Source: an uncultured Gammaproteobacteria bacterium
GTDB taxonomy: Bacteria > Pseudomonadota > Gammaproteobacteria > Enterobacterales > Psychrobiaceae
Assembly: GCA_913060565.1 (NCBI GenBank)
Contig: CAJXRU010000019.1
Coordinates: forward strand, 1 to 41,721
Length of the DNA: 41,721 nucleotides
Reading direction: 5' to 3'
Below the pieces are notes generated by a model. That model was not told the origin of the DNA. It did not search any database and saw only the letters and a list, made by a program, of their open reading frames with translations. Below are positions 2,789 to 19,407 of the stretch, one piece after another; the stretch's first letter is position 1, and every line of letters starts with the position of its first letter. The position numbers and the translations under genes are program-made.

Positions 2789-3229
2789 ATGCAATTAGCA
2801 CAACTCAATATCGCGCAAGCAAAATATGACTTAGACGCACCGCAAATCAAAGACTTTGTTGATAATTTAGATATCGTCAATACGACTGCAGAAAATAACC
2901 CAGGATTTGTATGGCGCCTTAAAGATGATTCTGGCAGCGCCACTAATATTCAAGCTTTTGATGATCCAAACATGCTCGTTAATATGTCTATTTGGCGAGA
3001 TGTCGACAGCTTAAAAGATTTCATGTTCCGCACACATCATAAAGACTTTATGCGTCGTAAAGGTGAATGGTTTCATAAGTTGGAGCAGGCAAACTATGTT
3101 ATGTGGTGGATTGACGACAATCATATTCCTACCATCGAAGAAGCATTAAATCGGCTTGAGCATCTTAGAGAACACGGTGAAAGTGCTTACGCATTCTCTT
3201 TTAAGAAAGTCTTTAACAAGCTTATTTAA
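2789..3229 (+). CDS. DUF3291 domain-containing protein
   Basis: 146 residues, full length for DUF3291, a small family with a dimeric alpha-beta barrel-like pattern and no known reaction. Family-like features are the opening QLAQLNIA, the NNPGFVWRL segment (about 36-44), NMSIWRDVDSL (about 66-76) and the RRKGEWF / MWWI stretch (about 89-112). The ATG has AAGGATCG nine bases upstream. Its stop codon overlaps the stop of the convergent acyltransferase gene by four bases (TTAA at 3226-3229). No functional context is given by its neighbours. Confidence 0.85.
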   Translation: MQLAQLNIAQAKYDLDAPQIKDFVDNLDIVNTTAENNPGFVWRLKDDSGSATNIQAFDDPNMLVNMSIWRDVDSLKDFMFRTHHKDFMRRKGEWFHKLEQANYVMWWIDDNHIPTIEEALNRLEHLREHGESAYAFSFKKVFNKLI

Positions 3230-3888
3230 TCAATTAAATAGACGTCTGGTTGGTTAAATAACTGCTGTATTTTTTCAAAGAAGCGCCCTACATATAATCC
3301 ATCCATTACGCCGTGATGAACTTCGACCGATAACGGCATCATTAGACCTTGCGTTGTTCGAGTCGCTTTGCCATAAACTATTTTAGGAATACTATCGATT
3401 ACTGCCGTATTGCGGGCATTGGTAAAACTCGAAAAACTCACCCACGGGATCACGGACATGTGAACTTCATTTTGCGCTTTTTCGCCGCCAACAAACTGGC
3501 TGGCAATAAAAGGATTAGCTTTAGCAGTTTCTTGGGCGATGCGTGCTTTTTCATCAAAATCACTAAATGAATGTGCATACGGAAATCCACAAAAGCGCAT
3601 CGTTTCATCATCAGCTAAGATGGCGCAACTCACTTTAATTTTCTCATAAAGACGTACTTCATTGTCAACAATACGCAGCTTGAATGGCGCTAACTCGTTA
3701 ATTGCTATCTGTGTTAAATACAGGTAGGCATGAAAAAAGCTCAGTTGCTTATCCTTACAATAGGCAAGCAAGTAACTGGCGTCAATATCGGCAATGATAT
3801 TAAACCAAGGATGAGTGGCTAATTGATAAAATTTGAAATGCTCTGCACGCGGCCAGCTAGCCAGATCGATAGTTTGATAATTAGACAT
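3226..3888 (-). CDS. CatA-like O-acyltransferase
   Basis: 220 residues, the usual size for type A chloramphenicol acetyltransferase-like enzymes (PF00302). The catalytic motif HHxxxDG appears as HHGVMDG near the C terminus (about residues 191-197), with the expected VEV before it and the helix GRFFEKIQQL after it. The family transfers an acetyl group from acetyl-CoA to a hydroxyl. The substrate cannot be read from sequence: chromosomal homologues in environmental bacteria often do not confer drug resistance, and there is no resistance-island context here. It starts 10 bases after the stop of the hydroxyacid dehydrogenase on the same strand, so the two are probably one transcript. Confidence 0.85.
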   Translation of the reverse strand: MSNYQTIDLASWPRAEHFKFYQLATHPWFNIIADIDASYLLAYCKDKQLSFFHAYLYLTQIAINELAPFKLRIVDNEVRLYEKIKVSCAILADDETMRFCGFPYAHSFSDFDEKARIAQETAKANPFIASQFVGGEKAQNEVHMSVIPWVSFSSFTNARNTAVIDSIPKIVYGKATRTTQGLMMPLSVEVHHGVMDGLYVGRFFEKIQQLFNQPDVYLID

Positions 3889-7319: not shown

Positions 7320-7355
7320 GGCTTCTTCTTACTAAAAATAACAAGGATGTACCCT

Positions 7356-9308
7356 ATGAAGATTCTAATTAGCACTATTGTTGCTATGTTTTTCGCGTGT
7401 AACGCGTGGGCTATTTCGATCAGTGATTTTAGTGACCACAACAAATACCGTAGCGTAAAAATTTCTCCGTCTGGAAAATATTTAGCGATATCAAGATTTC
7501 AAGATGGTGAAACTGATTTGGTGATCGTTGATACCAAAACAATGAAAGCGGTTAATCAACTTTATTTTAGACGTAAAGAAGAAATTGGGACCTTATATTG
7601 GGTTAACGATGAGCGTCTCGTTTTCAAGATTTTCGTGAAACACCCTTCTCAAGAAAACCCAGTTTATTATGGCGAGCTCTTTTCAGTTAATGTGGATAAT
7701 ACAAAACCAAAAATGATCTTTGGTTCGCGTATTATATTAACCAAACCTAAAACATCACGTGAACGCAAGATCTACGAAAACCACATTGCAATGCGTTCTT
7801 CATGGGCAAATATTGTTAATTTATTACCCAATGATGAAAAGCATATTTTAATCTCTGCAAAATCTTATAAGCGTTCGTCACCTGCTCGGTTATACAAATT
7901 AAATGTTTACACAGCGGCTATTTCTCCCGTAACAGAAGAGCCAATTGCCAATTCGAATATATTTTCTGATCGAGACGGTAATTTAAAACTGGCCATTGGA
8001 TATAACAGCAAAGATCAAAAAGAAGTGTATCACTACAACAGCACGAATAATGAATGGACACAATCAACAAATTTAGAGCATGCCGGCGACTTTTACCCAT
8101 TAATATTTAATGACAAAACAAATCAATTAACTTATTTAGATAATATTGATCACGATAAAACAAGCCTTTATCGTGCCGATATGACCACTGGGAAACGTCA
8201 ACTCATTTACACCAACCCCAAATATGATATTGATTGGGTATCAATAGATGATGAAAGTACTAATTTATTTGGTTTAAAGGTACTGGAACAATATCCACAA
8301 TATTACTTCCCCGATCTCAATCAGCCATTGCAGCGATTATATAAGCAATTAACTGAAAGTTTCCCAGGTCGAAATGTAAGTATTGATAGTAATACGAGAG
8401 ACATGAATCAATTTGTTGTACGTGTATCTAGTGATCGCGAAGCAGTGGCATGGTACTTGTTCAATAAAGAAAAAAACGATGCAAAATTCATTGCTTCATC
8501 AACTAAACAACTACCTGCGCAACAAATGCAGTCGATGATGGCATTTGAGTTTAAAGCAAGAGATCAACAGAATATAAATGGCTACCTCACTCTACCTCCT
8601 GTTGCCGATAAAAAAAATCTACCCGCAGTAGTTCTAGTCCATGGCGGACCTTTTGGTGTTCAAGATAAATGGGCATTTAATAAAGAAGTCCAACTACTCG
8701 CTGCACATGGCTACGCCGTTGTGCAAATTAATTATCGCGGCTCTGGTGGTTATGGAACTAAGTTCCTGACATCAGGTTATCAACATTGGGGCGACAGTAT
8801 TCAGCACGATATCATTGATGGAACGCGCTTTTTAATTGAGCACAATATTATCGACAAGGAGCGCCTATGTATCATGGGAGCCTCATTTGGCGGCTATTCA
8901 GCTGTTCGGGCACCGATGATGAGCAAGGATCTCTTTAAGTGCGCTATCGCAAGCTCTGGTGTATACGACTTAATCTCATTTACGAAGGATAGTGATATTG
9001 AAAAGCAGTTGTGGGGAAAATCGTTTTTAGAGCGAACGGTAGGATTGGATCAATATCAACTACAAGGCTACTCACCTCAATATACCATTGAAAACCTGAA
9101 AATTCCTTTATTGCTAACTCACGGAGAGCTAGACGAACGCGCCCCCTATTCACAAGCAAAGGCTTTTTATAAAGCATTAAAGAAAGCCGATAAGAAAGTG
9201 ACTTGGGTAACCTATGATGAAGAAGGCCATGGTATTTACAACCAAGAAAACCGACTCGATTACTACCAAAAAGTGATAGATTTTCTACAAAAATACAATC
9301 CAATTTAG
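7356..9308 (+). CDS. Secreted S9 family prolyl oligopeptidase-like serine peptidase
   Basis: 650 residues. The start at 7356 is preferred over the in-frame ATG at 7347 because the latter overlaps the AAGGA ribosome site (7343-7347); the chosen Met opens a signal peptide of about 19 residues ending in CNAWA. The N-terminal half is a degenerate beta-propeller with WD40-like repeats; the C-terminal alpha/beta hydrolase domain carries Ser510 in GASFGGYSA, Asp593 in ELDERAPYS and His625 in EEGHGIY, a complete triad in family order. It probably cleaves peptides in the periplasm or outside. It follows the CNNM gene after 36 bases but has its own ribosome site; a functional link is not evident. Confidence 0.92.
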   Translation: MKILISTIVAMFFACNAWAISISDFSDHNKYRSVKISPSGKYLAISRFQDGETDLVIVDTKTMKAVNQLYFRRKEEIGTLYWVNDERLVFKIFVKHPSQENPVYYGELFSVNVDNTKPKMIFGSRIILTKPKTSRERKIYENHIAMRSSWANIVNLLPNDEKHILISAKSYKRSSPARLYKLNVYTAAISPVTEEPIANSNIFSDRDGNLKLAIGYNSKDQKEVYHYNSTNNEWTQSTNLEHAGDFYPLIFNDKTNQLTYLDNIDHDKTSLYRADMTTGKRQLIYTNPKYDIDWVSIDDESTNLFGLKVLEQYPQYYFPDLNQPLQRLYKQLTESFPGRNVSIDSNTRDMNQFVVRVSSDREAVAWYLFNKEKNDAKFIASSTKQLPAQQMQSMMAFEFKARDQQNINGYLTLPPVADKKNLPAVVLVHGGPFGVQDKWAFNKEVQLLAAHGYAVVQINYRGSGGYGTKFLTSGYQHWGDSIQHDIIDGTRFLIEHNIIDKERLCIMGASFGGYSAVRAPMMSKDLFKCAIASSGVYDLISFTKDSDIEKQLWGKSFLERTVGLDQYQLQGYSPQYTIENLKIPLLLTHGELDERAPYSQAKAFYKALKKADKKVTWVTYDEEGHGIYNQENRLDYYQKVIDFLQKYNPI

Positions 9309-9313
9309 CAATA

Positions 9314-9353
9314 AACAACGCTGTTCGTTTATTCATATTCGAACAGCGTTGTT
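9314..9353. terminator. 14-bp perfect hairpin after the S9 peptidase gene
   Basis: AACAACGCTGTTCG (9314-9327) pairs perfectly with CGAACAGCGTTGTT (9340-9353) around a 12-base loop, five bases after the stop codon. No T-run follows on either strand. Placement suggests a transcript end or a 3'-protecting structure rather than a textbook intrinsic terminator. Confidence 0.5.
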
Positions 9354-9428
9354 GCAGAACCGAACAAACCACTTAAAGAAATCATCCTCACCAAAATTAA
9401 ATCATTGAATTTAAACAAATTTTAATAT

Positions 9429-9444
9429 TGGCACACAACTTTCA
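9429..9444 (+). promoter_or_regulatory. Candidate sigma-54 (-24/-12) promoter of the ABC exporter operon
   Basis: TGGCAC, five bases, then TTTCA: the -24 half matches the sigma-54 consensus TGGCAC exactly and spacing to the -12 half is correct, but the -12 half reads TTTCA instead of TTGCA, losing the usually invariant G. It lies 36 bases before the first gene of an operon that encodes an NtrC-type activator, which is why it is listed. Confidence 0.35.
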
Positions 9445-9480: not shown

Positions 9481-10716
9481 ATGGATATTCAATTACAAGC
9501 ATCATCACCAGCAAAGCGCAATTCATTAATTGCCATCACGTGCATAGGCACCCTTCTCATTCTTTATTTCACCTTAAAGCCATCACGTCCAAGCTTTGAT
9601 ATAAGTGAATTAACTTTCTCGACAGCCCAACAAGGGCCTTTAGATATTTACGTTAATAGCTTTGGTGAATTTATATCTCATGAAGAACGATTACTCACAG
9701 CGCCAGCACGCGGCAAGGTAGCTGAGATCTTACATCGTCCTGGCGCAATAGTGAGTCCTGAAACCATCATAGTGCGTTTGATTAATCCACAACTAGCGCA
9801 AGATGTTAATCAAGCGACTGGAGCGTTAAGTCAAACGAAAGCGCAGCTGGCAGCATTTAAGTTCGAACAAGAAAGTGCACGTTTAAACCACCTAGGTACC
9901 ATTGAAGAACTTAAGGCGACGCTCGAACAAGCGCAGTTAGAATTATCAGTTAATAAACAATTGCTTTCATTCGGTACTGTCTCAAAGATCAAACTACAAC
10001 GCGCAAAATTAGCCGTAAAACAAAGTCAGAGTAGCTTGGAGTTTGAGCAAAAGAAATATCAGCAATTCATCGAAATGCAGGGCCACCAGCTTACCCAAAA
10101 ACGTATTGAAGTAGAGCAACAGCAGCGCAAACTTAACGTACTAAATGACCAACTCGACAACATGAATATCCGTGCAGGTCTCAATGGTACTCTACAAAAC
10201 CTTGATATTGCCCTAGGTGAAAGTGTGAACTTAGGTCAATCGATTGCAAAGGTTGGTAGTTTAGACAAACTCATTGCTCGTATACGACTCCCCCAACGCC
10301 AAGCAGACCAAATAGACTTGGGTGCCAAAGTTATCATTGATACACAAAAAGGAAAAATAGCGGCTCACATTACTCGTATTGAAAGCGTTGTCACCGATGG
10401 CTCAGTACTCGCAGAAGCCTCACTTGACGGTGCACTTACTGCCAATGCTCGCCCCTCTCTTGCTATTAGCGCAAAAGTCTTTGTAGAACACGAATCAGAC
10501 GCGATTCATATCAAGCAAAGTGCAGGATTTAGACCCAGCACTAAACAAACTCTATATGTGCTTACCAACAATCAGCTTGAACAGCGCAAAGTAACCTTTG
10601 GACATCTTACTAAAAATCAACTTATCATTGACGACGGCTTGCAAGCTGGCGAGATAATCGTCGCTAATGACATGCGTGATTTTCACCATTTTTCGACACT
10701 TGAATTAGTGCAATAA
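9481..10716 (+). CDS. Periplasmic adaptor (HlyD/MacA-like membrane fusion protein)
   Basis: 411 residues. One N-terminal transmembrane anchor (about 15-33) is followed by a split lipoyl/barrel-sandwich domain (ARGKVAEILHRPGAIV around 77-92 and NIRAGLNGTLQNLDIALGESV around 230-250) that flanks a long Gln/Glu/Lys-rich coiled coil (about 105-215), then beta-barrel and membrane-proximal domains. This is the adaptor of a tripartite pump linking an inner-membrane transporter to a TolC-like channel; no channel gene is in the window. First gene of the operon, 19 bases before the ATPase gene. It differs from true MacA in partner permease size (see the permease entry). Confidence 0.9.
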   Translation: MDIQLQASSPAKRNSLIAITCIGTLLILYFTLKPSRPSFDISELTFSTAQQGPLDIYVNSFGEFISHEERLLTAPARGKVAEILHRPGAIVSPETIIVRLINPQLAQDVNQATGALSQTKAQLAAFKFEQESARLNHLGTIEELKATLEQAQLELSVNKQLLSFGTVSKIKLQRAKLAVKQSQSSLEFEQKKYQQFIEMQGHQLTQKRIEVEQQQRKLNVLNDQLDNMNIRAGLNGTLQNLDIALGESVNLGQSIAKVGSLDKLIARIRLPQRQADQIDLGAKVIIDTQKGKIAAHITRIESVVTDGSVLAEASLDGALTANARPSLAISAKVFVEHESDAIHIKQSAGFRPSTKQTLYVLTNNQLEQRKVTFGHLTKNQLIIDDGLQAGEIIVANDMRDFHHFSTLELVQ

Positions 10717-10735
10717 CTCATTAAGGAATTTGACT

Positions 10736-11437
10736 ATGACGCAGAAATTACTCGTTAGCGTAACCGACATTACAAAAAACTATCGCAATAAACAAATTGA
10801 AACCAAAGCACTCAAAGGCGTTTCTCTGAGTATTTATGAAGGTGAATTTGTCGCAATCACCGGCCCATCGGGCTGTGGTAAATCAACATTACTGTCCATT
10901 ATGGGATTAATGGATACAGCCTCATCAGGTCAGTATACCATCAGCGACATTGATACGAGTCACCTAAAAATCGACCAGCGCACAATGATCCGCAATAAAC
11001 ACATTGGGTTTGTTTTTCAATCATTTAACCTTATTGATGACATGAGCGTCTTTGACAATGTTGCACTTATTTTGGAGCACAGAAAAACGCCGAAGGCTGA
11101 AATCAAAGAGCGCGTCGAACACGTTTTAACTCAGGTTGATATGCTGGCGCGTCAGCATTATCAGCCGAACCAACTTTCTGGTGGTCAACAACAACGAATT
11201 GCAATAGCACGCGCATTAGTTGGCAATCCAGATCTCATCTTAGTCGATGAGCCAACAGGTAACCTTGATACTGTTAATGGTGACAAGGTAATGGCACTGC
11301 TCGAAAAGCTAAACCATGATGGCGCGACCATAGTGATGGTAACTCACGACAGTCGTTATGTTCGATGCGCGAATAGACAAATTCAATTATTGGATGGAGA
11401 AATCATTACCGAAAAGCAATTGGAGGTAGTGGCATGA
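10736..11437 (+). CDS. ABC transporter ATP-binding protein (MacB/LolD type)
   Basis: 233 residues from the ATG at 10736. A TTG two codons earlier (10730) is rejected because AAGGAA (10723-10728) is correctly spaced for the ATG. All nucleotide-binding motifs are present: Walker A GPSGCGKST (about 43-51), Q-loop FVFQSFN, signature LSGGQQQR (about 147-154), Walker B LILVDEPTGNLD and the H-loop His in VTHD. The sequence is of the MacB/LolD/FtsE class that powers mechanotransmission by FtsX-type permeases. Its stop overlaps the permease start (ATGA at 11434-11437), indicating translational coupling. Confidence 0.95.
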   Translation: MTQKLLVSVTDITKNYRNKQIETKALKGVSLSIYEGEFVAITGPSGCGKSTLLSIMGLMDTASSGQYTISDIDTSHLKIDQRTMIRNKHIGFVFQSFNLIDDMSVFDNVALILEHRKTPKAEIKERVEHVLTQVDMLARQHYQPNQLSGGQQQRIAIARALVGNPDLILVDEPTGNLDTVNGDKVMALLEKLNHDGATIVMVTHDSRYVRCANRQIQLLDGEIITEKQLEVVA

Positions 11438-13902
11438 GTTTAGCCCTCAAATCCCTCGGTCGTGGTACAAAACGCATCATATCTGTGCCACGTTTAAGTT
11501 TGTCATTGATAATTGCGCTTGGCTCAACTCTTGGCGCTGTGCTCTGTGTGACAGCAATAGTATCTGCACTCATTGTTAAGCCACTACCAGGTGTGAGTAA
11601 CGCGGCCTCATTAAGCGCTCTGAAACTCAACGTTACTTTTGGAGGCTCATTTAAACTAGATTTTATTACAGCACATGCGCTTAATCACGCCAGTGAGCAC
11701 TTCAAAGATATCGGCCTTTGGACCTCAGTTGAAGCGACTCGAAGCAGTATTGATGTAGAGACCATTAATCATCCAGTTACCTTATTTAATGCCGGCAGTA
11801 ACGCGACTGATGTTCTAGGCACGCGGCTAATCTTGGGTGATTTTGTTACAAACGAAAAAACACAATCTCACGCATGGATATCAAGCTCATTATGGCAAAG
11901 CGCGTATTCCGGCCTAACGACGGTACTGGGTAAAACAATGACCATTAACGGACAACAGTACATCATCGCTGGCGTGCTGGAAGATACCTTAGCAATAACC
12001 AGTAACGACCCCATATTACCAAATCAAGTATGGCGCTATAGCGATTTTAGTAAAGCGCTTGGCATGACAAAGACCGATAACATAGGCAACAATTCCCTCA
12101 AAAATATCTTTATCAAACCTCATAACGACAATATTTCAATGCCGACTGATGATGAAATTTTGCAGTGGTATAACTTGTATGTTGATACGCAAATCACCGT
12201 ACCTGGGATACAAGATTTTGTACGAAGCATGCCAATGGAAAGTTCAATGACTGATTATCGAGCAAGCTTTTTAGACACCAGTTATAACCTTGCCATCGGC
12301 TTGTCAATCACTGCACTTGGTTTATTGTTAATGGCCAGCCTCAATCTAGTAAACCTCTTTTTAAGTCACTATCAAAGCCGTAGTAAAGAGTTCGCCGTTC
12401 AACTTAGCATGGGAGCCACGCCTTTAAAGTTACGAGGGTTAATGATCTTAGAAAACTTACCCAGCTTTGCGTTAGCGGGTATTTTTGGTGCATTGCTAGG
12501 CGCATGGCTCATTAAAGCACTGCCACTACTTTCAAACAATGAAATGCCTATGCTCAGCGCTATTAGTATCGATAAATTAACCTTAATCGTTGGTGCAATC
12601 ATTGTTTTGAGCTTATCAATTGTTTTCGGACTGCTATCAATTACTAATATCAACAAACATAACTTGCAAAGTAATCTCAACAGCAGTGGTAAAGGCACAG
12701 CCGCGCAATCAAGTAGTAGCATCAGCCGGGCCTTAATGATTTTGCAAATATCTATTGCGTCAGTCTTAATGACGGGCTCTGTTATGCTTGCTAAAAACAC
12801 CTACGATGAAGTCAATCAAAACCTTGGCTTTAGCCTCGACCTAGCGCAACAAATATCATTTAACATCAAAGACGAACAGTGGATAGAACAACTTAAAATA
12901 TCAAATCAAGCAGATGCTCTAAATAATGAATATCAAGATTTCATCAAGCAATTGGGAAAGGATGTTACCGCGAAGATCCCTGACAGCGAAGTCGCTCTTG
13001 TCAATGATGGCGGGCTTTTAAGTGGCAGCATTAGCTTGCGTTCTAACTCTTCAACTGAAAATCCAGAGCAAATGTTGACCTATCAAGTTTATCACTATGA
13101 TGCAGGCTATTTTGACGCGTTAGATATACCTGTTTTAGCGGGCACACCTCTAACAGCACAGGAAATAGCTGAAAAGTCTAACAAGGTCATCATCGATGAA
13201 CGATTCGCAAGGGAGTTATTTCCAGAGATAGATTATCAAAAGATCATTGGACAACAATTACCCACGGACGAAGAAAAAATTGTAGGCGCTATTGTTGCAG
13301 AAACAGGGTTTGAAAAAACGCGTATCGGACCATCGATTTATACCCCCCACCACTCAGTGTCACGACGAATAACTTATACTTTGATTTTGCCTTTGGGTGT
13401 AAAGTTATCGAGCGATGAGCTCAAAGTTTACTTTGAAAAGCAATATCCACAACTTGAGTTAGTCGAGGCTAAATCACTCAAGGATATTTGGTTAGAGATG
13501 ACAGTATCAGATAGGTTAACCCTCTATGTACTTATTGCTATTACATTGTTAACCATCATTTTGGCGGCTATAGGTATTTCAGGACTGACGTTGATGACCA
13601 CTCATCAAAAGAAATATGAGTTAGCCATTCGCATGGCAACGGGTGCACGTCAGTCATCCTTAATGCGTTTTGTTATAAAAGACACGATGTGGATTCTCAT
13701 TATTGGGCTCTTAATAGGGTTTACGTTATCGGTCTCTGGTTACGATTGGCTCAAAGAAAATATTAGTTTATTGCCAGAATTCAACTGGTTAACTTTGGGA
13801 AGTTTGGATATTGGATTGGTCATTGTTGTGCTACTATCGGTGATATTTCCTACTTGGCGCGTCATTAAACAAGATCCATTAAACGCGCTCCGACAAGAGT
13901 AA
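11434..13902 (+). CDS. Large ABC permease with duplicated MacB_PCD-FtsX modules
   Basis: 822 residues. Hydrophobic segments suggest eight helices: 21-48, about 284-312, 344-362, 383-404, 435-453, 695-720, 742-768 and 787-810. Two large extracytoplasmic regions lie at about 50-280 and 460-690. The two FtsX-like cores (ARMATGA-type motif at 'AVQLSMGATPLKLRG' and 'AIRMATGARQSSLMR') show an internal duplication, unlike the four-helix MacB, which works as a dimer. It should move a substrate across or out of the inner membrane together with the ATPase and adaptor. The ligand is unknown; peptides, lipids and lipoproteins are all handled by relatives. Eight bases separate it from the response-regulator gene. 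Confidence 0.9.
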   Translation: MSLALKSLGRGTKRIISVPRLSLSLIIALGSTLGAVLCVTAIVSALIVKPLPGVSNAASLSALKLNVTFGGSFKLDFITAHALNHASEHFKDIGLWTSVEATRSSIDVETINHPVTLFNAGSNATDVLGTRLILGDFVTNEKTQSHAWISSSLWQSAYSGLTTVLGKTMTINGQQYIIAGVLEDTLAITSNDPILPNQVWRYSDFSKALGMTKTDNIGNNSLKNIFIKPHNDNISMPTDDEILQWYNLYVDTQITVPGIQDFVRSMPMESSMTDYRASFLDTSYNLAIGLSITALGLLLMASLNLVNLFLSHYQSRSKEFAVQLSMGATPLKLRGLMILENLPSFALAGIFGALLGAWLIKALPLLSNNEMPMLSAISIDKLTLIVGAIIVLSLSIVFGLLSITNINKHNLQSNLNSSGKGTAAQSSSSISRALMILQISIASVLMTGSVMLAKNTYDEVNQNLGFSLDLAQQISFNIKDEQWIEQLKISNQADALNNEYQDFIKQLGKDVTAKIPDSEVALVNDGGLLSGSISLRSNSSTENPEQMLTYQVYHYDAGYFDALDIPVLAGTPLTAQEIAEKSNKVIIDERFARELFPEIDYQKIIGQQLPTDEEKIVGAIVAETGFEKTRIGPSIYTPHHSVSRRITYTLILPLGVKLSSDELKVYFEKQYPQLELVEAKSLKDIWLEMTVSDRLTLYVLIAITLLTIILAAIGISGLTLMTTHQKKYELAIRMATGARQSSLMRFVIKDTMWILIIGLLIGFTLSVSGYDWLKENISLLPEFNWLTLGSLDIGLVIVVLLSVIFPTWRVIKQDPLNALRQE

Positions 13903-13910
13903 CGCTTAAA

Positions 13911-15272
13911 ATGAGTCAAACGCTGTTAATTTGTGATGATGACGCCGATATCAGATTGGCGTTATCATTATTACTCGCTGACCAAGGGTATAACATCATT
14001 GAAGCTGACAGTCCCAAAACGGTTGTAACTAATGCTCAGCGTAATCAACCTGATGTTATATTGCTCGATATGAACTTTTCCCGTGATACAACAAGCGGTC
14101 AAGAAGGACTATGGTTAATTGAGCAACTTAAACCTTTGTCCATTCCCATCATTCTAATGACAGCATGGGGCTCTATAGAATTAGCAGTAAAAGGTCTTAA
14201 TTTAGGAGCTAATGATTTTATTGAAAAACCTTGGAATAAAGATCGTTTACTCAAGAGCATTCAACAACAGGTTAAATTACAACAATTAACCACAGAAAAT
14301 CAGACTCTGAAACAATTGCTAACCCCCTCAACACAATCTCTAACGTGGTCAGCATTGTCACCTAGCATGAAACATGTTGAAGAATTAATACGTCAGATCG
14401 CGCCAACCGACGCTAACTTGTTAATTTTAGGAGAAAATGGAACCGGAAAGTCCCTTTTGGCACAGCGAGTCCATCAACTTTCAGCAAGAGCCGAGCAGCC
14501 ATTAGTACAAGTTAATATGGCCGCCATCCCACACAACTTATTTGAAAGCGAATTATTTGGCCACCAAAAAGGGGCTTTTACCGATGCTAAATCTGCTCGT
14601 ATCGGGCGCTTTCAGCTTAGCGAAAACTCGACATTATTTTTGGATGAGATAGGTACATTGCCACTCGCACTGCAACCTAAACTATTACGAGTATTAGAAA
14701 CAGGGCAATATGAAATTGTTGGTTCCAGTACCACTCAACAAAGTAATGCGAGAATAATCAGCGCAACCAACGCTGACCTTTCATCATTGGTTTCTGCCGG
14801 CGAGTTTCGCCAAGATCTGCTGTATCGGCTAAATACCTTTGTGATAAAGTTACCGCCATTACGAGAGCGCCAACAAGATATTGAGCCCCTCACTCAAGTA
14901 TTTATTAAACAGCTTTGTGATAAATACAACAAACCGCTTTGCGTGCTATCAACATCGGCACTGGCTAAATTAATAACTCATCAATGGCCTGGTAATATAC
15001 GAGAGTTACAACACGTTATAGAACGAGCCGTTCTACTGTGTAATAAGCAAGAAATTGATGACAGCCTTATTTTGATTGACCATACAGAGCAACCGTCGCC
15101 TCGCCTTTTGTCAGATAATGACTTACACCTTGAACAACACGAAAAGCGCTTAATCAATCGCGCAATTGAAGTATCTAACGGACATATTACTGGCGCAGCA
15201 AAGTTGCTAGGTATTTCGAGAAACTCTCTTTATCGCCGCTTAGAAAAGCACGAGATAAATCATGACGCATGA
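13911..15272 (+). CDS. NtrC-family sigma-54-dependent response regulator
   Basis: 453 residues with three domains: receiver (about 1-125; acidic pocket D9-D11, phospho-acceptor D53, T84, K107), AAA+ (about 145-385; Walker A GENGTGKS 174-181, Walker B LFLDEIG 242-248, arginine region FRQDLLYRLN), and a Fis-type helix-turn-helix (about 425-446, GAAKLLGISRNSLYRRL). The sigma-54-contacting loop reads GAFTDA (221-226) rather than GAFTGA. It should activate sigma-54 promoters when phosphorylated by the adjacent kinase, very likely the promoter of its own operon. It overlaps the kinase gene by 11 bases. Confidence 0.95.
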   Translation: MSQTLLICDDDADIRLALSLLLADQGYNIIEADSPKTVVTNAQRNQPDVILLDMNFSRDTTSGQEGLWLIEQLKPLSIPIILMTAWGSIELAVKGLNLGANDFIEKPWNKDRLLKSIQQQVKLQQLTTENQTLKQLLTPSTQSLTWSALSPSMKHVEELIRQIAPTDANLLILGENGTGKSLLAQRVHQLSARAEQPLVQVNMAAIPHNLFESELFGHQKGAFTDAKSARIGRFQLSENSTLFLDEIGTLPLALQPKLLRVLETGQYEIVGSSTTQQSNARIISATNADLSSLVSAGEFRQDLLYRLNTFVIKLPPLRERQQDIEPLTQVFIKQLCDKYNKPLCVLSTSALAKLITHQWPGNIRELQHVIERAVLLCNKQEIDDSLILIDHTEQPSPRLLSDNDLHLEQHEKRLINRAIEVSNGHITGAAKLLGISRNSLYRRLEKHEINHDA

Positions 15273-16518
15273 ACGCAAACTACAGCTTGGCTTATTCATT
15301 AACGCCAGTCTTATCATTTTGCTCAGCGTGATCATTACTTCTCAATTTCAGTGGTCAACATTGGCTATATCGACCCTAGTATTCGTTTTATTTCTTACCT
15401 TAGCCTTTGTGAGTTATAGCTATTATGAGCTTTGGCGACAAACATTAATGAACCTGACAAGTTACACCCAATTACTGAGTGAAGGCGTCACAAACGTCGC
15501 CCCATTACTCAATAATACCAATGGGCTTATCGATGAACTTCAACTAGAAATAAACAACCTTGCGACAAGTAAAGTAATGCAATCAGATTCAACATCCAAA
15601 ACACTATCTGCGCTCATGGATGAATGGCCAATTGCTGTTGCATTATTTAACCAACACCAGCAGCTTTTATATCGCAACCCTGCAATGTTAGAGACGCTTA
15701 AGCTACCGCTGCTCATTGGTACGACAGCAGCACAAAGTGGATTTACGGCTCATGATAATAATGGCGAACTTACACATCCCGACTTTAACCAACAATGGCA
15801 AACGCAAAATCTGTGGTTTAACGATGATGAACAACGCATTCAAATGTTAACGGCGACGAATATAGGACAATCACTGCGGGCACATGAGAGCGTCATCCAA
15901 GAAAACTTGATTCGCGTGTTTAGTCACGAACTTAGAAATTCATTAACACCTATGGAATCAATGACTGACACACTATTGTCGCAAAAATCACCGTCACCAC
16001 AAAACACTAAACTTGTACTAACAAGAATAAACCAGAGAAGTAAGCACTTACTTGAATTCATCAATCAATATGCAGATTTAAGCCGTTTATCTCAGCCCAA
16101 TTTACGATGGTTCGAATTTAAGCCATTAATTGATGAATCAAAAACAGTATTACCTAACCATACAAAAGTTATCGTCAAAGGAGAAAAGCGTTGCTTTGGC
16201 GATGTTACACAGCTCTCAATGGTATTAATCAATTTGTTCAAAAATGCATTTCAAGCGGCAGCCGACGAAGATTTAGCATTAAACATTGCGCTTTATCATG
16301 ACAATGGCCTCCAATTTATTGAAGTTGTCGATAATGGACTAGGCTTCACCAACCTTAAAAATGCGACCACGCCTTTTTATACGACCAAGCAAGAAGGAAG
16401 CGGAATTGGACTCGCCCTATCAAGAGAAGTCGTGCACCAGCATGGGGGGCAATTAATCATTGAAAACAGAGGGAATGCGGCGGGCGCAAAGATAACGCTA
16501 AAATGGCCAATCCACTAG
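15262..16518 (+). CDS. Sensor histidine kinase with minimal periplasmic loop
   Basis: 418 residues. Two transmembrane helices (about 9-27 and 33-53) are joined by a loop of only about five residues, so there is no periplasmic sensor domain. A PAS-like segment (about 115-205, from LMDEWPIAVALFN) precedes the kinase core: H-box FSHELRNSLTP with His222, N-box NLFKNAF (Asn324/Asn328), G1 DNGLGF (357-362) and G2 GSGIGLAL (379-386). It is the cognate partner of the upstream NtrC-type regulator, with overlapping reading frames. The layout resembles intramembrane-sensing kinases that work with ABC permeases in Gram-positive bacteria. Last gene of the operon. Confidence 0.93.
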   Translation: MTHERKLQLGLFINASLIILLSVIITSQFQWSTLAISTLVFVLFLTLAFVSYSYYELWRQTLMNLTSYTQLLSEGVTNVAPLLNNTNGLIDELQLEINNLATSKVMQSDSTSKTLSALMDEWPIAVALFNQHQQLLYRNPAMLETLKLPLLIGTTAAQSGFTAHDNNGELTHPDFNQQWQTQNLWFNDDEQRIQMLTATNIGQSLRAHESVIQENLIRVFSHELRNSLTPMESMTDTLLSQKSPSPQNTKLVLTRINQRSKHLLEFINQYADLSRLSQPNLRWFEFKPLIDESKTVLPNHTKVIVKGEKRCFGDVTQLSMVLINLFKNAFQAAADEDLALNIALYHDNGLQFIEVVDNGLGFTNLKNATTPFYTTKQEGSGIGLALSREVVHQHGGQLIIENRGNAAGAKITLKWPIH

Positions 16519-16700: not shown

Positions 16701-18281
16701 ATGAATAAAAATAAACTATTATTGGCCATTGGCCTAACCGTGACTTCCCCGCTAGCTTTAGCTGATGTAGTACTAAGTGAAGTACTTTATGACGCACCAA
16801 ATAACGATACGACTGAAGAATATGTAGAGCTATTTAATGCAAGCTGTAATGCTATTAATCTTAATGATTACAAGCTGCAAGATAATGGCGTAACCTACCA
16901 GCTTTCAGGCACTATCGAGCCAAGCAGTTACTTCGTCGTTGCTCGCAATGCGAATGGCTATCAAGGCTTATTTAACCAATCTCCTAACCTATCAAATCTT
17001 TCTCTAAGCTTAGGCAACTCTGGTGACTACGTTAAGCTACTTAAAAATAACAACACCATAGATACTGTTGCTTGGGAAGGTGGATTATCGGGCTGGAGCA
17101 TTTCAACGCGCAACAAATCAATTCATCGCACATCACTTAGCTCTGGTAACGGTGCTTGGGCAGTAAGTAGTAATGCTGGCTCACACTTAAGCGGTAGCCT
17201 GAGTCATGACTGTGCCCCTGTGGTTGACGATAGCAAACTAGAAAATAATCAAGCTAAAACGGGTTTATCAGCAACCCGTGGCAACACATTAAACTTTACA
17301 ATTGACGTACCAGCAAACGCGAGTAAGTTAGACGTGAGCATTGCAGGTAACAATGGCGATGCTGACTTAATTATTAGCTTAAATAACAAAGAGTTATGCA
17401 AGCCATACCTACACGGTAGCAATGAAGAGTGTAATCTAACTAATCCAGCTGCCGGTAGCTACTCTGTCGATATTGATGCTTACACGTCATTTAACAATGT
17501 GACCTTATTGGCTAAGGTCACCGCCGCGGCAGTTACTCCTCCTCCACCACCGCCTTCTGGTGATTACAACTATGATGTTTATTATCAATCAGCGATTGGC
17601 AAATCAGGCGCTACATTAAAGTCTGCCCTTAATGGATTGGCAAAAGATCACGTGCGCTTTAGCTACAGCCAAGCATGGGATGGATTAGGCTATGCGGATG
17701 AAGATCCAAATAACACTAATAACGTTATTCTTTTATACACTGGTCGCTCAGAGCCTAAAACTAATCGCGCAGGCATGAGTAATTCTCAAGATGCTTGGAA
17801 TCGTGAACACGTATGGGCTAAAAGCCATGGCTTCCCAAGCTCAGGCCAACACGCCTACACCGACTTCCATCACCTTCGTCCTGCCGATGTAAGTGTTAAC
17901 AGCGCACGCGGTAATAAAGACTTCTTAAACGGCGGTAGTGAAATTAGCGAAGCACCAGGTAACTTTACTGATAGCGACAGTTTCCAAGCAGCTGATACGG
18001 TGAAAGGCGATGTAGCCCGTATGATTTTCTATATGGATGTTCGTTATGAAGGAAACGACAATAGTGGAACGCCAGATTTATCAATTGCTAGCGGCACGAC
18101 AAGTACTGGTGTTGCGCAATTAGGCGACTTATGTACGTTACTACAATGGCATTTAGATGACCCAGTAAGCAACTGGGAACGTCGTCGTAACAGCCGTATT
18201 TTTGAGTGGCAGAAAAACCGAAACCCGTTCATCGATAACCCACAGTGGGCAACAGAGCTTTATCAATCTCAGTGTCCTTAA
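16701..18281 (+). CDS. Secreted endonuclease I family nuclease with lamin-tail and PPC-like domains
   Basis: 526 residues. A signal peptide ends at about Ala21 (PLALA). Then a lamin-tail domain (about 22-130, opening with VVLSEVLYDAP and EEYVELFN), a pre-peptidase C-terminal-like beta-sandwich (about 185-275, with NGDADLIISLNN), a proline hinge (six Pro near 280-286), and an EndA/endonuclease I domain (about 290-520). The last carries the beta-beta-alpha-metal type active site around NREHVWAKSH (His370) and DFHHLRPADVSVNSARGN. It should degrade extracellular DNA/RNA for nutrient or phosphate gain, or for biofilm turnover. It stands alone, 182 bases after the kinase gene, and is followed by a hairpin. 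Confidence 0.93.
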   Translation: MNKNKLLLAIGLTVTSPLALADVVLSEVLYDAPNNDTTEEYVELFNASCNAINLNDYKLQDNGVTYQLSGTIEPSSYFVVARNANGYQGLFNQSPNLSNLSLSLGNSGDYVKLLKNNNTIDTVAWEGGLSGWSISTRNKSIHRTSLSSGNGAWAVSSNAGSHLSGSLSHDCAPVVDDSKLENNQAKTGLSATRGNTLNFTIDVPANASKLDVSIAGNNGDADLIISLNNKELCKPYLHGSNEECNLTNPAAGSYSVDIDAYTSFNNVTLLAKVTAAAVTPPPPPPSGDYNYDVYYQSAIGKSGATLKSALNGLAKDHVRFSYSQAWDGLGYADEDPNNTNNVILLYTGRSEPKTNRAGMSNSQDAWNREHVWAKSHGFPSSGQHAYTDFHHLRPADVSVNSARGNKDFLNGGSEISEAPGNFTDSDSFQAADTVKGDVARMIFYMDVRYEGNDNSGTPDLSIASGTTSTGVAQLGDLCTLLQWHLDDPVSNWERRRNSRIFEWQKNRNPFIDNPQWATELYQSQCP

Positions 18282-18447: not shown

Positions 18448-19407
18448 GTGTTACTAAAACACAAACTTTACACCAGCCTTATCGCTGCAACATTGCTTCC
18501 TCTGTGTATTTCTACGCTATTTTTTTCAAACAGCCTACATGAGCTAACCAGTAACAAACTTGTCAAACAAGAACTACCAACCGCATTAAGTAACGTTCGC
18601 AACGCCATTGAATGGCAACTCTCAGAACCCATTGCAACCTCCCGTGCCATAGCAACTAACTCATTTGTAAAGCAGTGGCTTAAAGAAGGTGAGCCACTTA
18701 AAAGTACTGAGCAATACATTAATTATCTAAATAACGTCAAGCTCACTGATGATGCAATCAGTGCATTTATTGTGTCTCATACTTCACAACGATATTATTC
18801 ATACAGTGGGGAAATAAGACAACTCTCCTATCCTTCTGACAATTGGTTTACCGATTTTTTATCATCTAATAAACGTTACGGTTTAGTCTTCGATATTAAT
18901 AAACAGACAGGCAAAGCAAAAGTTTATGTAAACTTCGTTATAGAGGTGGATGGTGAACGACGTGGCCTAGCAGGTATTTCGCATTCGGTAAGCTCCATGA
19001 ATGAAATCATTCGAAGCCAATCAATAGGCAATGGTGGAATAGTATATTTAGTTGATGCCGTCGGTGAAATAAAGCTTCACCCCGACCAATCGATGATTGG
19101 CGAGTCCATCCCACTTAACAACATTATTTATGGCCTTCAAACAACTATTGAACGTGATAAGCAGACACTTGTCTCATCAAGTATTCCACTGCAATCCTTA
19201 GACTGGCATTTGGTGGCAGAAATTCCAGAAGACAAATTGTATGGCCCCATCGATGAAGCTATTCGCAACAATCTACTATTTGGCGGCTTGCTCGCAGTGC
19301 TAGGTGTCATGCTCATTATTTTATTCGTTAACCGGATGTTTAGACCCATCGAACAAATTACAAACTCAGTATCTTCCCTCGCCACTAAGATAGTTGGTAA
19401 ACATTAG
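18448..19407 (+). CDS. dCache receptor ending at the start of HAMP (no output domain)
   Basis: 319 residues. A GTG start has AAGGA seven bases upstream. Helix 1 (about 5-26), a dCache-type periplasmic ligand-binding region (about 35-270; FIVSHTSQRYYSYSG, DNWFTDFL, GNGGIVYLVDAVGEIKLHPD), helix 2 (about 274-297), then only the first HAMP helix (RPIEQITNSVSSLA) before the stop. Chemoreceptors, diguanylate cyclases and kinases of this architecture normally continue with an effector domain; none follows here. A MITE sits in the stop codon, but removing it still leaves a TAA after the same last residue, so the short form predates the insertion. It may be an orphan sensor acting through a partner, or an older truncation. 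Confidence 0.8.
   Translation: MLLKHKLYTSLIAATLLPLCISTLFFSNSLHELTSNKLVKQELPTALSNVRNAIEWQLSEPIATSRAIATNSFVKQWLKEGEPLKSTEQYINYLNNVKLTDDAISAFIVSHTSQRYYSYSGEIRQLSYPSDNWFTDFLSSNKRYGLVFDINKQTGKAKVYVNFVIEVDGERRGLAGISHSVSSMNEIIRSQSIGNGGIVYLVDAVGEIKLHPDQSMIGESIPLNNIIYGLQTTIERDKQTLVSSSIPLQSLDWHLVAEIPEDKLYGPIDEAIRNNLLFGGLLAVLGVMLIILFVNRMFRPIEQITNSVSSLATKIVGKH

Follow-up and report, generated by a model that had tools for sequence, protein, structure and literature searches.

A recurrent pump and kinase module with a predicted sigma-54 loop on its own export genes in Gammaproteobacteria

How does a histidine kinase with almost no periplasmic part receive its signal, and what does the export pump encoded beside it have to do with that signal? 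The question is raised by five genes at positions 9481-16518 of a 41,721-nucleotide stretch, hereafter the window, from an uncultured gammaproteobacterium of the family Psychrobiaceae (GenBank assembly GCA_913060565.1, contig CAJXRU010000019.1). They encode a periplasmic adaptor, an ABC ATPase, a duplicated FtsX/MacB-type permease, an NtrC-type response regulator and the kinase. In this study, we found that this gene set recurs widely, and it very probably represents a Gram-negative module that closes a sigma-54 loop on its own pump. That the module is self-inducing, with the pump itself as the sensor, is the best single reading, ahead of sensing by the kinase alone, and we hold it at just short of an even chance.

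All five genes lie on the + strand. The adaptor, a HlyD/RND_mfp family protein of 411 amino acids (9481-10716; open reading frame call, Pfam HlyD_3, NCBIfam RND_mfp), is followed by a LolD/MacB/DarD-like ATPase (10730-11437; open reading frame call, Pfam ABC_tran), whose gene starts at TTG with an in-frame ATG two codons further. The permease of 822 amino acids (11434-13902) matches FtsX twice and MacB_PCD, and precedes the regulator (13911-15272, 453 amino acids) and the kinase (15262-16518, 418 amino acids). The successive intergenic gaps are 13, -4, 8 and -11 bases, in agreement with the tight packing, by overlaps or gaps below 20 bases, described in the initial annotation; hydropathy also gave about 230 residues for each of the two large extracytoplasmic domains of the permease, which had been put at more than 200. 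The TIGR03434 model "ADOP duplicated permease" covered nearly the whole permease with 303 bits, under its cut-off of 622, and DarD, the top NCBIfam model for the ATPase, also scored under its cut-off. Against the PDB, the permease matched solved MacB chains, with weaker matches to YtrF, LolC and an unnamed permease; the seven PDB sequences listed for it at E up to 1 include no BceB chain. The ATPase matched MacB, LolD and, lower down, BceA among the best 60 of its 108 matches. Adaptor, ATPase and FtsX/MacB_PCD permease thus make up the set of a MacB-type tripartite pump. Two TolC-type genes score above cut-off elsewhere in the genome, and the TolC family was not among the 25 largest clusters of module-flanking genes, as judged by eye. 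The regulator carries Response_reg, Sigma54_activat and HTH_8, that is, the receiver, the AAA+ domain with its GAFT loop and the Fis-type helix-turn-helix of a sigma-54 enhancer-binding protein. Its phospho-acceptor D53, K106 and Walker A K180 are kept in 70 of the 71 module regulators (one row is gapped), and the GAFT threonine, T224 in the window, in all 71.

The same genome holds six modules, identified by kinase and permease searches and by reading the regions: C19 (the window), C76, C43, C11, C3 and C35. The first four have a fused permease, and C3 and C35, whose stretches end before the ATPase and adaptor, have two half-size permeases; the gene order of C11 is regulator-kinase-adaptor-ATPase-permease. 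The genome has 59 HATPase_c places, and the module kinases account for six of them. Since the five other kinases are only 23-29% identical to the window kinase, the six modules appear to be old duplicates.

Relatives were collected by kinase sequence only. With a profile built from the six kinases, and no more than 14 candidates scored in each genome, 26 of the order's 118 genomes gave matches at E 1e-40; the 51 rows obtained are all covered by the analysed stretches. In the phylum (at most four candidates scored per genome) the profile matched 113 of 398 genomes, many matches having long NtrY-like frames; 33 more rows with frames below about 630 amino acids, down to E 4e-55, were taken from this search, together with 22 long-frame rows as comparators. 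A search of genome contigs with a single kinase returned one relative, L018. Among the resulting 84 kinase loci, an FtsX permease was present in 80 (in one, L085, as remnants only) and all four partners in 71. The gap between kinase and permease in the 80 loci had a median of 1.5 kb and a maximum of 4.4 kb, and the two genes stay paired over at least three gene arrangements. Kinase homologues therefore do not occur mostly apart from such permeases, the outcome that the initial annotation had named as telling against its proposal; the gene set and the short-loop kinase occur together across the order and beyond, in a gene order that varies.

No permease was found in the stretches of L052, L091, L092 and L102. 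Thirteen loci are incomplete, and in eight of them (L016, L017, L018, L052, L054, L072, L100 and L107) the stretch or contig apparently ends before the absent genes. L091 is apparently the other half of L084, split by a contig break, and L103 has permease, ATPase and regulator, its adaptor not having been found. The other three incomplete loci are L085, L092 and L102. Clustering of flanking genes showed, among the 25 largest clusters, no sixth gene present in more than eight loci beside the modules. The five-gene set in the window is beyond chance, with six copies in this genome and linkage in nearly all loci examined. Several loci depart from this plan. L085 (G079, contig C132) is a decayed module, a stop-bearing kinase fragment beside permease remnants. 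Extra permease genes stand beside a single kinase elsewhere: L058 and L122 have two of full size, L072 has three, and for L100 and L107 the permease matches number five or six. This suggests that these five modules are enlarged variants.

The window kinase consists of two helices, at about residues 7-25 and 33-51, a weak or sub-threshold HAMP/PAS-like linker, HisKA and HATPase_c. By hydropathy the loop between the helices has about 5-7 residues, close to the five first proposed. Such a loop is too short, and the kinase would therefore not bind a periplasmic ligand itself, as had been claimed. The hairpin is a property of the family. Among 81 module kinases (the 84 loci minus L085, L091 and L092), a scripted measurement on the first two helices gave a distance of 2-11 residues in 75; in L054, L057, L079, L103 and L132, for which the script returned a single helix, a short hairpin was read by eye, and L100, with about 31 residues, is the lone long one. 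The kinase of L092 has a loop of 117 residues. The 22 long-frame comparators (L116, L117 and L134-L153) are NtrY-type kinases, all with four helices and a periplasmic loop that spans about 175-201 residues; for L143, in which the script placed an extra helix inside the loop, the value was 130. The stretches around them, about 15-19 kb long, held no match to permease, ATPase or adaptor at E 1e-5, and an NtrC-family regulator match adjoins 12 of the 22. In a tree sampling module kinases and NtrY-type comparators and no other kinase families, 80 module kinases were separated from a group of 24, namely the comparators, L092 and L093, with branch support of 99/97. Sixty of the 81 module kinases were scanned for domains (E 0.01): PAS_8 was found in 29, PAS in 20 and HAMP in six, and in the window kinase PAS_8 and HAMP both fell under the threshold. 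Thus, the description of a kinase lacking a sensor holds for the periplasm, and the family is not devoid of sensor-like parts.

The sigma-54 consensus is TGGCAC-N5-TTGCW, in which the G at -12 is usually conserved. We scored upstream regions by penalised mismatch against this consensus, calling a score of 1 or less strong and 2 or less looser. The window has a candidate promoter, TGGCAC-N5-TTTCA (9429-9444, + strand), with a single mismatch; its score is 1.5 because this mismatch replaces the -12 G, and none of 50 shuffles gave an equally good site. Strong sites were present upstream of 32 of 71 adaptor genes. For the regulator genes the count was 2 of 81, for the ATPase genes 2 of 74 and for the kinase genes 0 of 83; at the looser score the four counts were 50, 9, 3 and 3, respectively. 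Three comparators are among the kinase genes counted, and L081 and L082 contribute a second regulator. In the regulator-first loci L015 and L052 the site lies between kinase and adaptor, which points to the pump as the target of sigma-54 control. RpoN is encoded in the genome. A sigma-54 output, as first proposed, is predicted.

Upstream of the window promoter lies a candidate enhancer for the regulator (9317-9366, + strand), composed of an inverted repeat, AACGCTGTTCG...CGAACAGCGTT, and a third half-site, CCGAACA. The repeat is conserved in L061, a relative from the same genus. A single place in the 4.35-Mb genome carries the pattern GCTGTTC-N8-16-GAACAGC, and GTCCGATATCGGAC with up to one mismatch is likewise found at a single place, ahead of the C11 pump; uniqueness was examined for these two of the six copies. 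In 23 loci read by eye, without a shuffled control, the upstream inverted repeats differ by clade: the window and L061 share the AACGCTGTTCG/CGAACAGCGTT repeat, several loci of the L015 group have AGTCCGATATCGGACT or something close to it, and TGTCCG/CGGACA repeats precede the promoters of many split-permease loci. A clear repeat was not seen in some of the 23. These clade-specific repeats are predicted to be private operators or enhancers. The RNA of the window repeat (about 9314-9353) would also fold into a strong hairpin close behind the stop of the upstream gene, and the repeat may have a dual role as enhancer and RNA hairpin. An intrinsic terminator was considered at this place, but the hairpin lacks a following T-tract and is missing from the output of the terminator scan.

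From these features we propose the following mechanism. Adaptor, ATPase and duplicated MacB-type permease would form an inner-membrane pump, which presumably docks on a TolC encoded elsewhere. Lacking a periplasmic sensor of its own, the kinase would receive the state of the pump, either substrate on the large extracytoplasmic domains or the ATPase cycle, through the membrane hairpin, the HAMP/PAS linker or both. The kinase, judging from conserved residues, would phosphorylate the NtrC-type regulator, which is predicted to bind its own inverted-repeat enhancer and to fire the sigma-54 promoter ahead of the pump genes; in the window operon, firing would also raise kinase and regulator. The substrate may most likely be a toxic peptide or another antibiotic-like compound. 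A broader form of this proposal is a Gram-negative, cross-phylum family of pump-as-sensor modules of an origin independent of Bce, in which a MacB-type pump reports its load to a kinase of NtrY-like descent without a periplasmic sensor and each copy is insulated by an enhancer found only before its own pump, so that a cell runs several private sigma-54 loops for detoxification or export. We put this forward tentatively, as possible and somewhat short of probable. If true, six copies with identifiable private operators would be directly testable exporters with built-in reporters.

The partners within a module have stayed together. Distances between kinase N-terminal parts and between permeases were correlated between genomes with r 0.731 (71 complete modules), and shuffling partners within 13 multi-module genomes gave at best r 0.475 in 200 trials, never 0.731. 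The swap tests for catalytic part and permease, regulator and permease, kinase and adaptor, and kinase and ATPase behaved alike (0/200 each), which indicates module cohesion rather than a specific contact.

Several observations weigh against the pump as sensor. Partner retention fits plain operon co-inheritance as well. Of 14 related pairs, 12 showed the hairpin as the kinase region of lowest conservation. Its rank correlation with the permease helices, computed over 789 close pairs, was the weakest at 0.44, the HAMP-like part reaching 0.66, PAS 0.77 and the catalytic part 0.79; no hairpin-permease specific co-variation was thus seen in this region-wise coupling test. Structure models were too poor to give evidence of a kinase-permease contact (mean predicted local distance difference test score, pLDDT, 38 for the kinase and 30 for the permease; two rows each, window and L018). 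No pump lies within about 8.5 kb of the short-loop kinase of L102, 21 of the 71 adaptor genes have no sigma-54 site even at the looser score, and the window -12 element deviates at the G, as it does in L061. In addition, the PAS segments in many module kinases offer an alternative input route. They are the core of the strongest competing account, in which the kinase senses for itself, by its cytoplasmic HAMP/PAS part or through a membrane ligand, and the pump is output only. In 13 of the 14 related pairs PAS was as well conserved as the hairpin or better, the nearest non-module kinases from the profile are NtrY-type, and a 2024 paper reports a precedent for a membrane ligand in the heme kinase HssS of Staphylococcus aureus, which controls the pump HrtBA (PMC11237747). 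Taken alone, however, self-sensing leaves unexplained why the short hairpin is paired with pump linkage throughout the clade, and why kinase and permease remain together while the gene arrangement changes. We regard it as a real but lesser possibility.

The same PAS segments could serve inhibition of the PhoR kind, in which the pump ATPase or its cytoplasmic face holds the kinase off via PAS until the pump is saturated, and deletion of the pump would turn the promoter fully on. PhoR, a Gram-negative kinase that lacks a canonical periplasmic sensor, is ruled by PstSCAB/PhoU (PMC6978683), and ATPase and PAS distances correlate at 0.84, though no better than ATPase and catalytic-part distances (also 0.84). 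The 25 largest flanking-gene clusters, in which no search was aimed at PhoU, held no sixth gene present in more than eight loci, and we consider this arrangement unlikely. For the window copy only, the periplasmic sensor could be a stand-alone Cache-domain protein encoded downstream (18448-19407), in which a dCache domain is followed by a hydrophobic helix with no output-domain match. It has relatives in L018, near the kinase, and in L061. The clustered family is limited to these three loci, however, and is therefore not a general input, and the shared neighbourhood may be mere synteny; such a role is very improbable. Finally, an ordinary pump and an unrelated two-component system might be accidental neighbours, both parent families being very common. 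We give this almost no credence, as it is contradicted by the permease linkage in 80 of 84 loci, by the partner-swap test and by the operators and promoters on the pump genes. Self-induction with the pump as sensor is the reading that we favour.

The module also occurs in named bacteria. A tblastn search of plasmids with the kinase returned 17 records (Rahnella 11, Pseudoalteromonas 4, Xenorhabdus 1 and Phocaeicola 1), five of which were examined; the permease gave nothing on plasmids at 1e-20, and the six-kinase alignment gave only two distant, partial matches on viral contigs. Rahnella aquatilis CP042358 (L158) has the identical five-gene order followed by a phosphopantetheinyl transferase gene, amid ketoacyl-synthase, AMP-binding and P450 genes. 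Xenorhabdus sp. TH1 (L160) has the five genes with a phosphopantetheinyl transferase gene, and phenazine-type genes about 10 kb on. As these two relatives lie in or near biosynthetic genes, modules might point to unknown antibiotics. In both, the 4'-phosphopantetheinyl transferase gene stands immediately after the kinase. Two Pseudoalteromonas megaplasmids carry the module, one with split permeases. In an unannotated record of Phocaeicola massiliensis (Bacteroidota), regulator and kinase are divergent from an adaptor and two permeases, and no ATPase match was found in the 20.7-kb stretch. On sequence grounds, these named relatives extend the module family to Bacteroidota. Kinase loops have 3-11 residues in all five records. 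The closest sigma-54 match ahead of the adaptor carries a single mismatch in one of the records and two mismatches in the other four. Annotation, present for four records, names the kinase "ATP-binding protein" or "PAS domain-containing protein".

Other genes of the window surround the module. An S9 prolyl-oligopeptidase gene (7347-9308) separates the module from a CNNM/CorC-type gene. In L061 the CNNM/CorC-type gene is immediately upstream of the adaptor with no S9 gene between, so the latter was apparently gained in the window or lost in L061. The dCache gene begins about 2 kb downstream of the kinase, and its L061 relative is presumably the 328-amino-acid gene immediately after the L061 kinase. 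Between kinase and dCache gene, positions 16701-18281 encode lamin tail, PPC and endonuclease I domains in one protein, whose N-terminus looks secreted by eye. A chloramphenicol-acetyltransferase-family protein (PF00302) is encoded at 3226-3888 on the - strand.

Known systems share parts of this arrangement. MacAB-TolC and MacRS-MacABC of Stenotrophomonas maltophilia also combine an adaptor with a MacB-family permease and have a two-component system encoded alongside; macRS, however, is divergently encoded, its inactivation left macABC expression unaffected, and the available text does not mention sigma-54 for it (PMC8277102). Neither this review nor PMC5985334, in the portions at hand, mentions a sigma-54 module. 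In HssRS-HrtBA of Staphylococcus a two-component system likewise controls a MacB-family pump (PMC5985334); unlike in our proposal, the kinase is reported to be activated by membrane heme itself (PMC11237747). The window ATPase and adaptor score against DarD and DarC of the darobactin exporter DarBCD, but far under the curated cut-offs, and the permease match is weak (36 bits). A link to the zeamine cluster was rejected: HlyD, ABC and phosphopantetheinyl transferase genes are there, but the gene table in the available part lacks the five-gene module (PMC3547906). In a 2025 study, sigma-54 promoters were predicted for COG0577 permeases in Gammaproteobacteria, Bacteroidia and Opitutia, which the authors called first evidence; the accessible text does not tie this prediction to a kinase (PMC12316311). 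In the part seen of an older sigma-54 survey, the terms MacB, ABC transporter, efflux and permease are all absent (PMC3162934). Among the matches listed from open-access literature, outside which lie most subscription papers and all preprints, we recognised no description of the kinase-pump module. The initial suggestion of an undescribed system thus stands for the kinase-pump module in the literature searched, and not for sigma-54 control of such permeases, which the 2025 study had predicted.

The signalling half resembles NtrY/NtrX: among the matches of the profile search, the closest kinases outside the module clade are of this type, and 12 of the 22 examined have an NtrC-family regulator match beside them. 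The comparators nevertheless show four helices and a large periplasmic loop and lack a pump nearby, and the window kinase, with two helices and a short loop, is not built like NtrY. PstSCAB-PhoU-PhoR resembles the module as a Gram-negative system in which an ABC transporter rules a kinase without a canonical periplasmic sensor (PMC6978683). It differs from the module in using an importer and in acting through PhoU. Its regulator is OmpR-type, and sigma-54 is not known to take part in it.

The closest functional parallel comes from Gram-positive bacteria. The definition of Bce-like modules asks for a large-loop transporter and, next to it, a two-helix kinase whose loop has 12 residues or less; such modules were described as restricted to Firmicutes (PMC3023708). 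The kinase BceS binds BceB and is likewise built of two helices, a short loop and a HAMP domain (PMC10314905, PMC3023708), and a BceAB-S structure has been reported (PMC10314905). The window module shares with BceAB-BceRS a MacB-family transporter with a large extracytoplasmic domain, a regulator acting on the pump's own promoter (predicted here), duplication of the module and co-evolution of its parts (PMC3023708, PMC10314905, PMC5985334), and its linked two-helix kinase, with a loop of about 5-7 residues, falls within the defined length (PMC3023708). BceB-type permeases, in contrast, have ten helices and a single large extracytoplasmic domain, and Bce modules have no adaptor (PMC5985334), whereas the window permease is of the duplicated MacB/ADOP type with two extracytoplasmic stretches and is accompanied by the HlyD/RND_mfp adaptor. 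The module kinase family is NtrY-like with PAS. The window regulator is NtrC-type with Sigma54_activat, whereas Bce regulators are OmpR-type, and a sigma-54 promoter is predicted for the window module. The BceAB-BceRS logic first proposed thus holds in loop length, gene linkage and self-directed output; sensing by the permease and its relay remain a proposal beside the cytoplasmic HAMP/PAS alternative, and special co-variation between hairpin and permease was not seen. By this analogy, the module looks like a convergent counterpart of BceAB-BceRS. If the pump is indeed the sensor, it would be a Gram-negative equivalent, with sigma-54 output, of Bce-like modules previously reported only from Firmicutes (PMC3023708).

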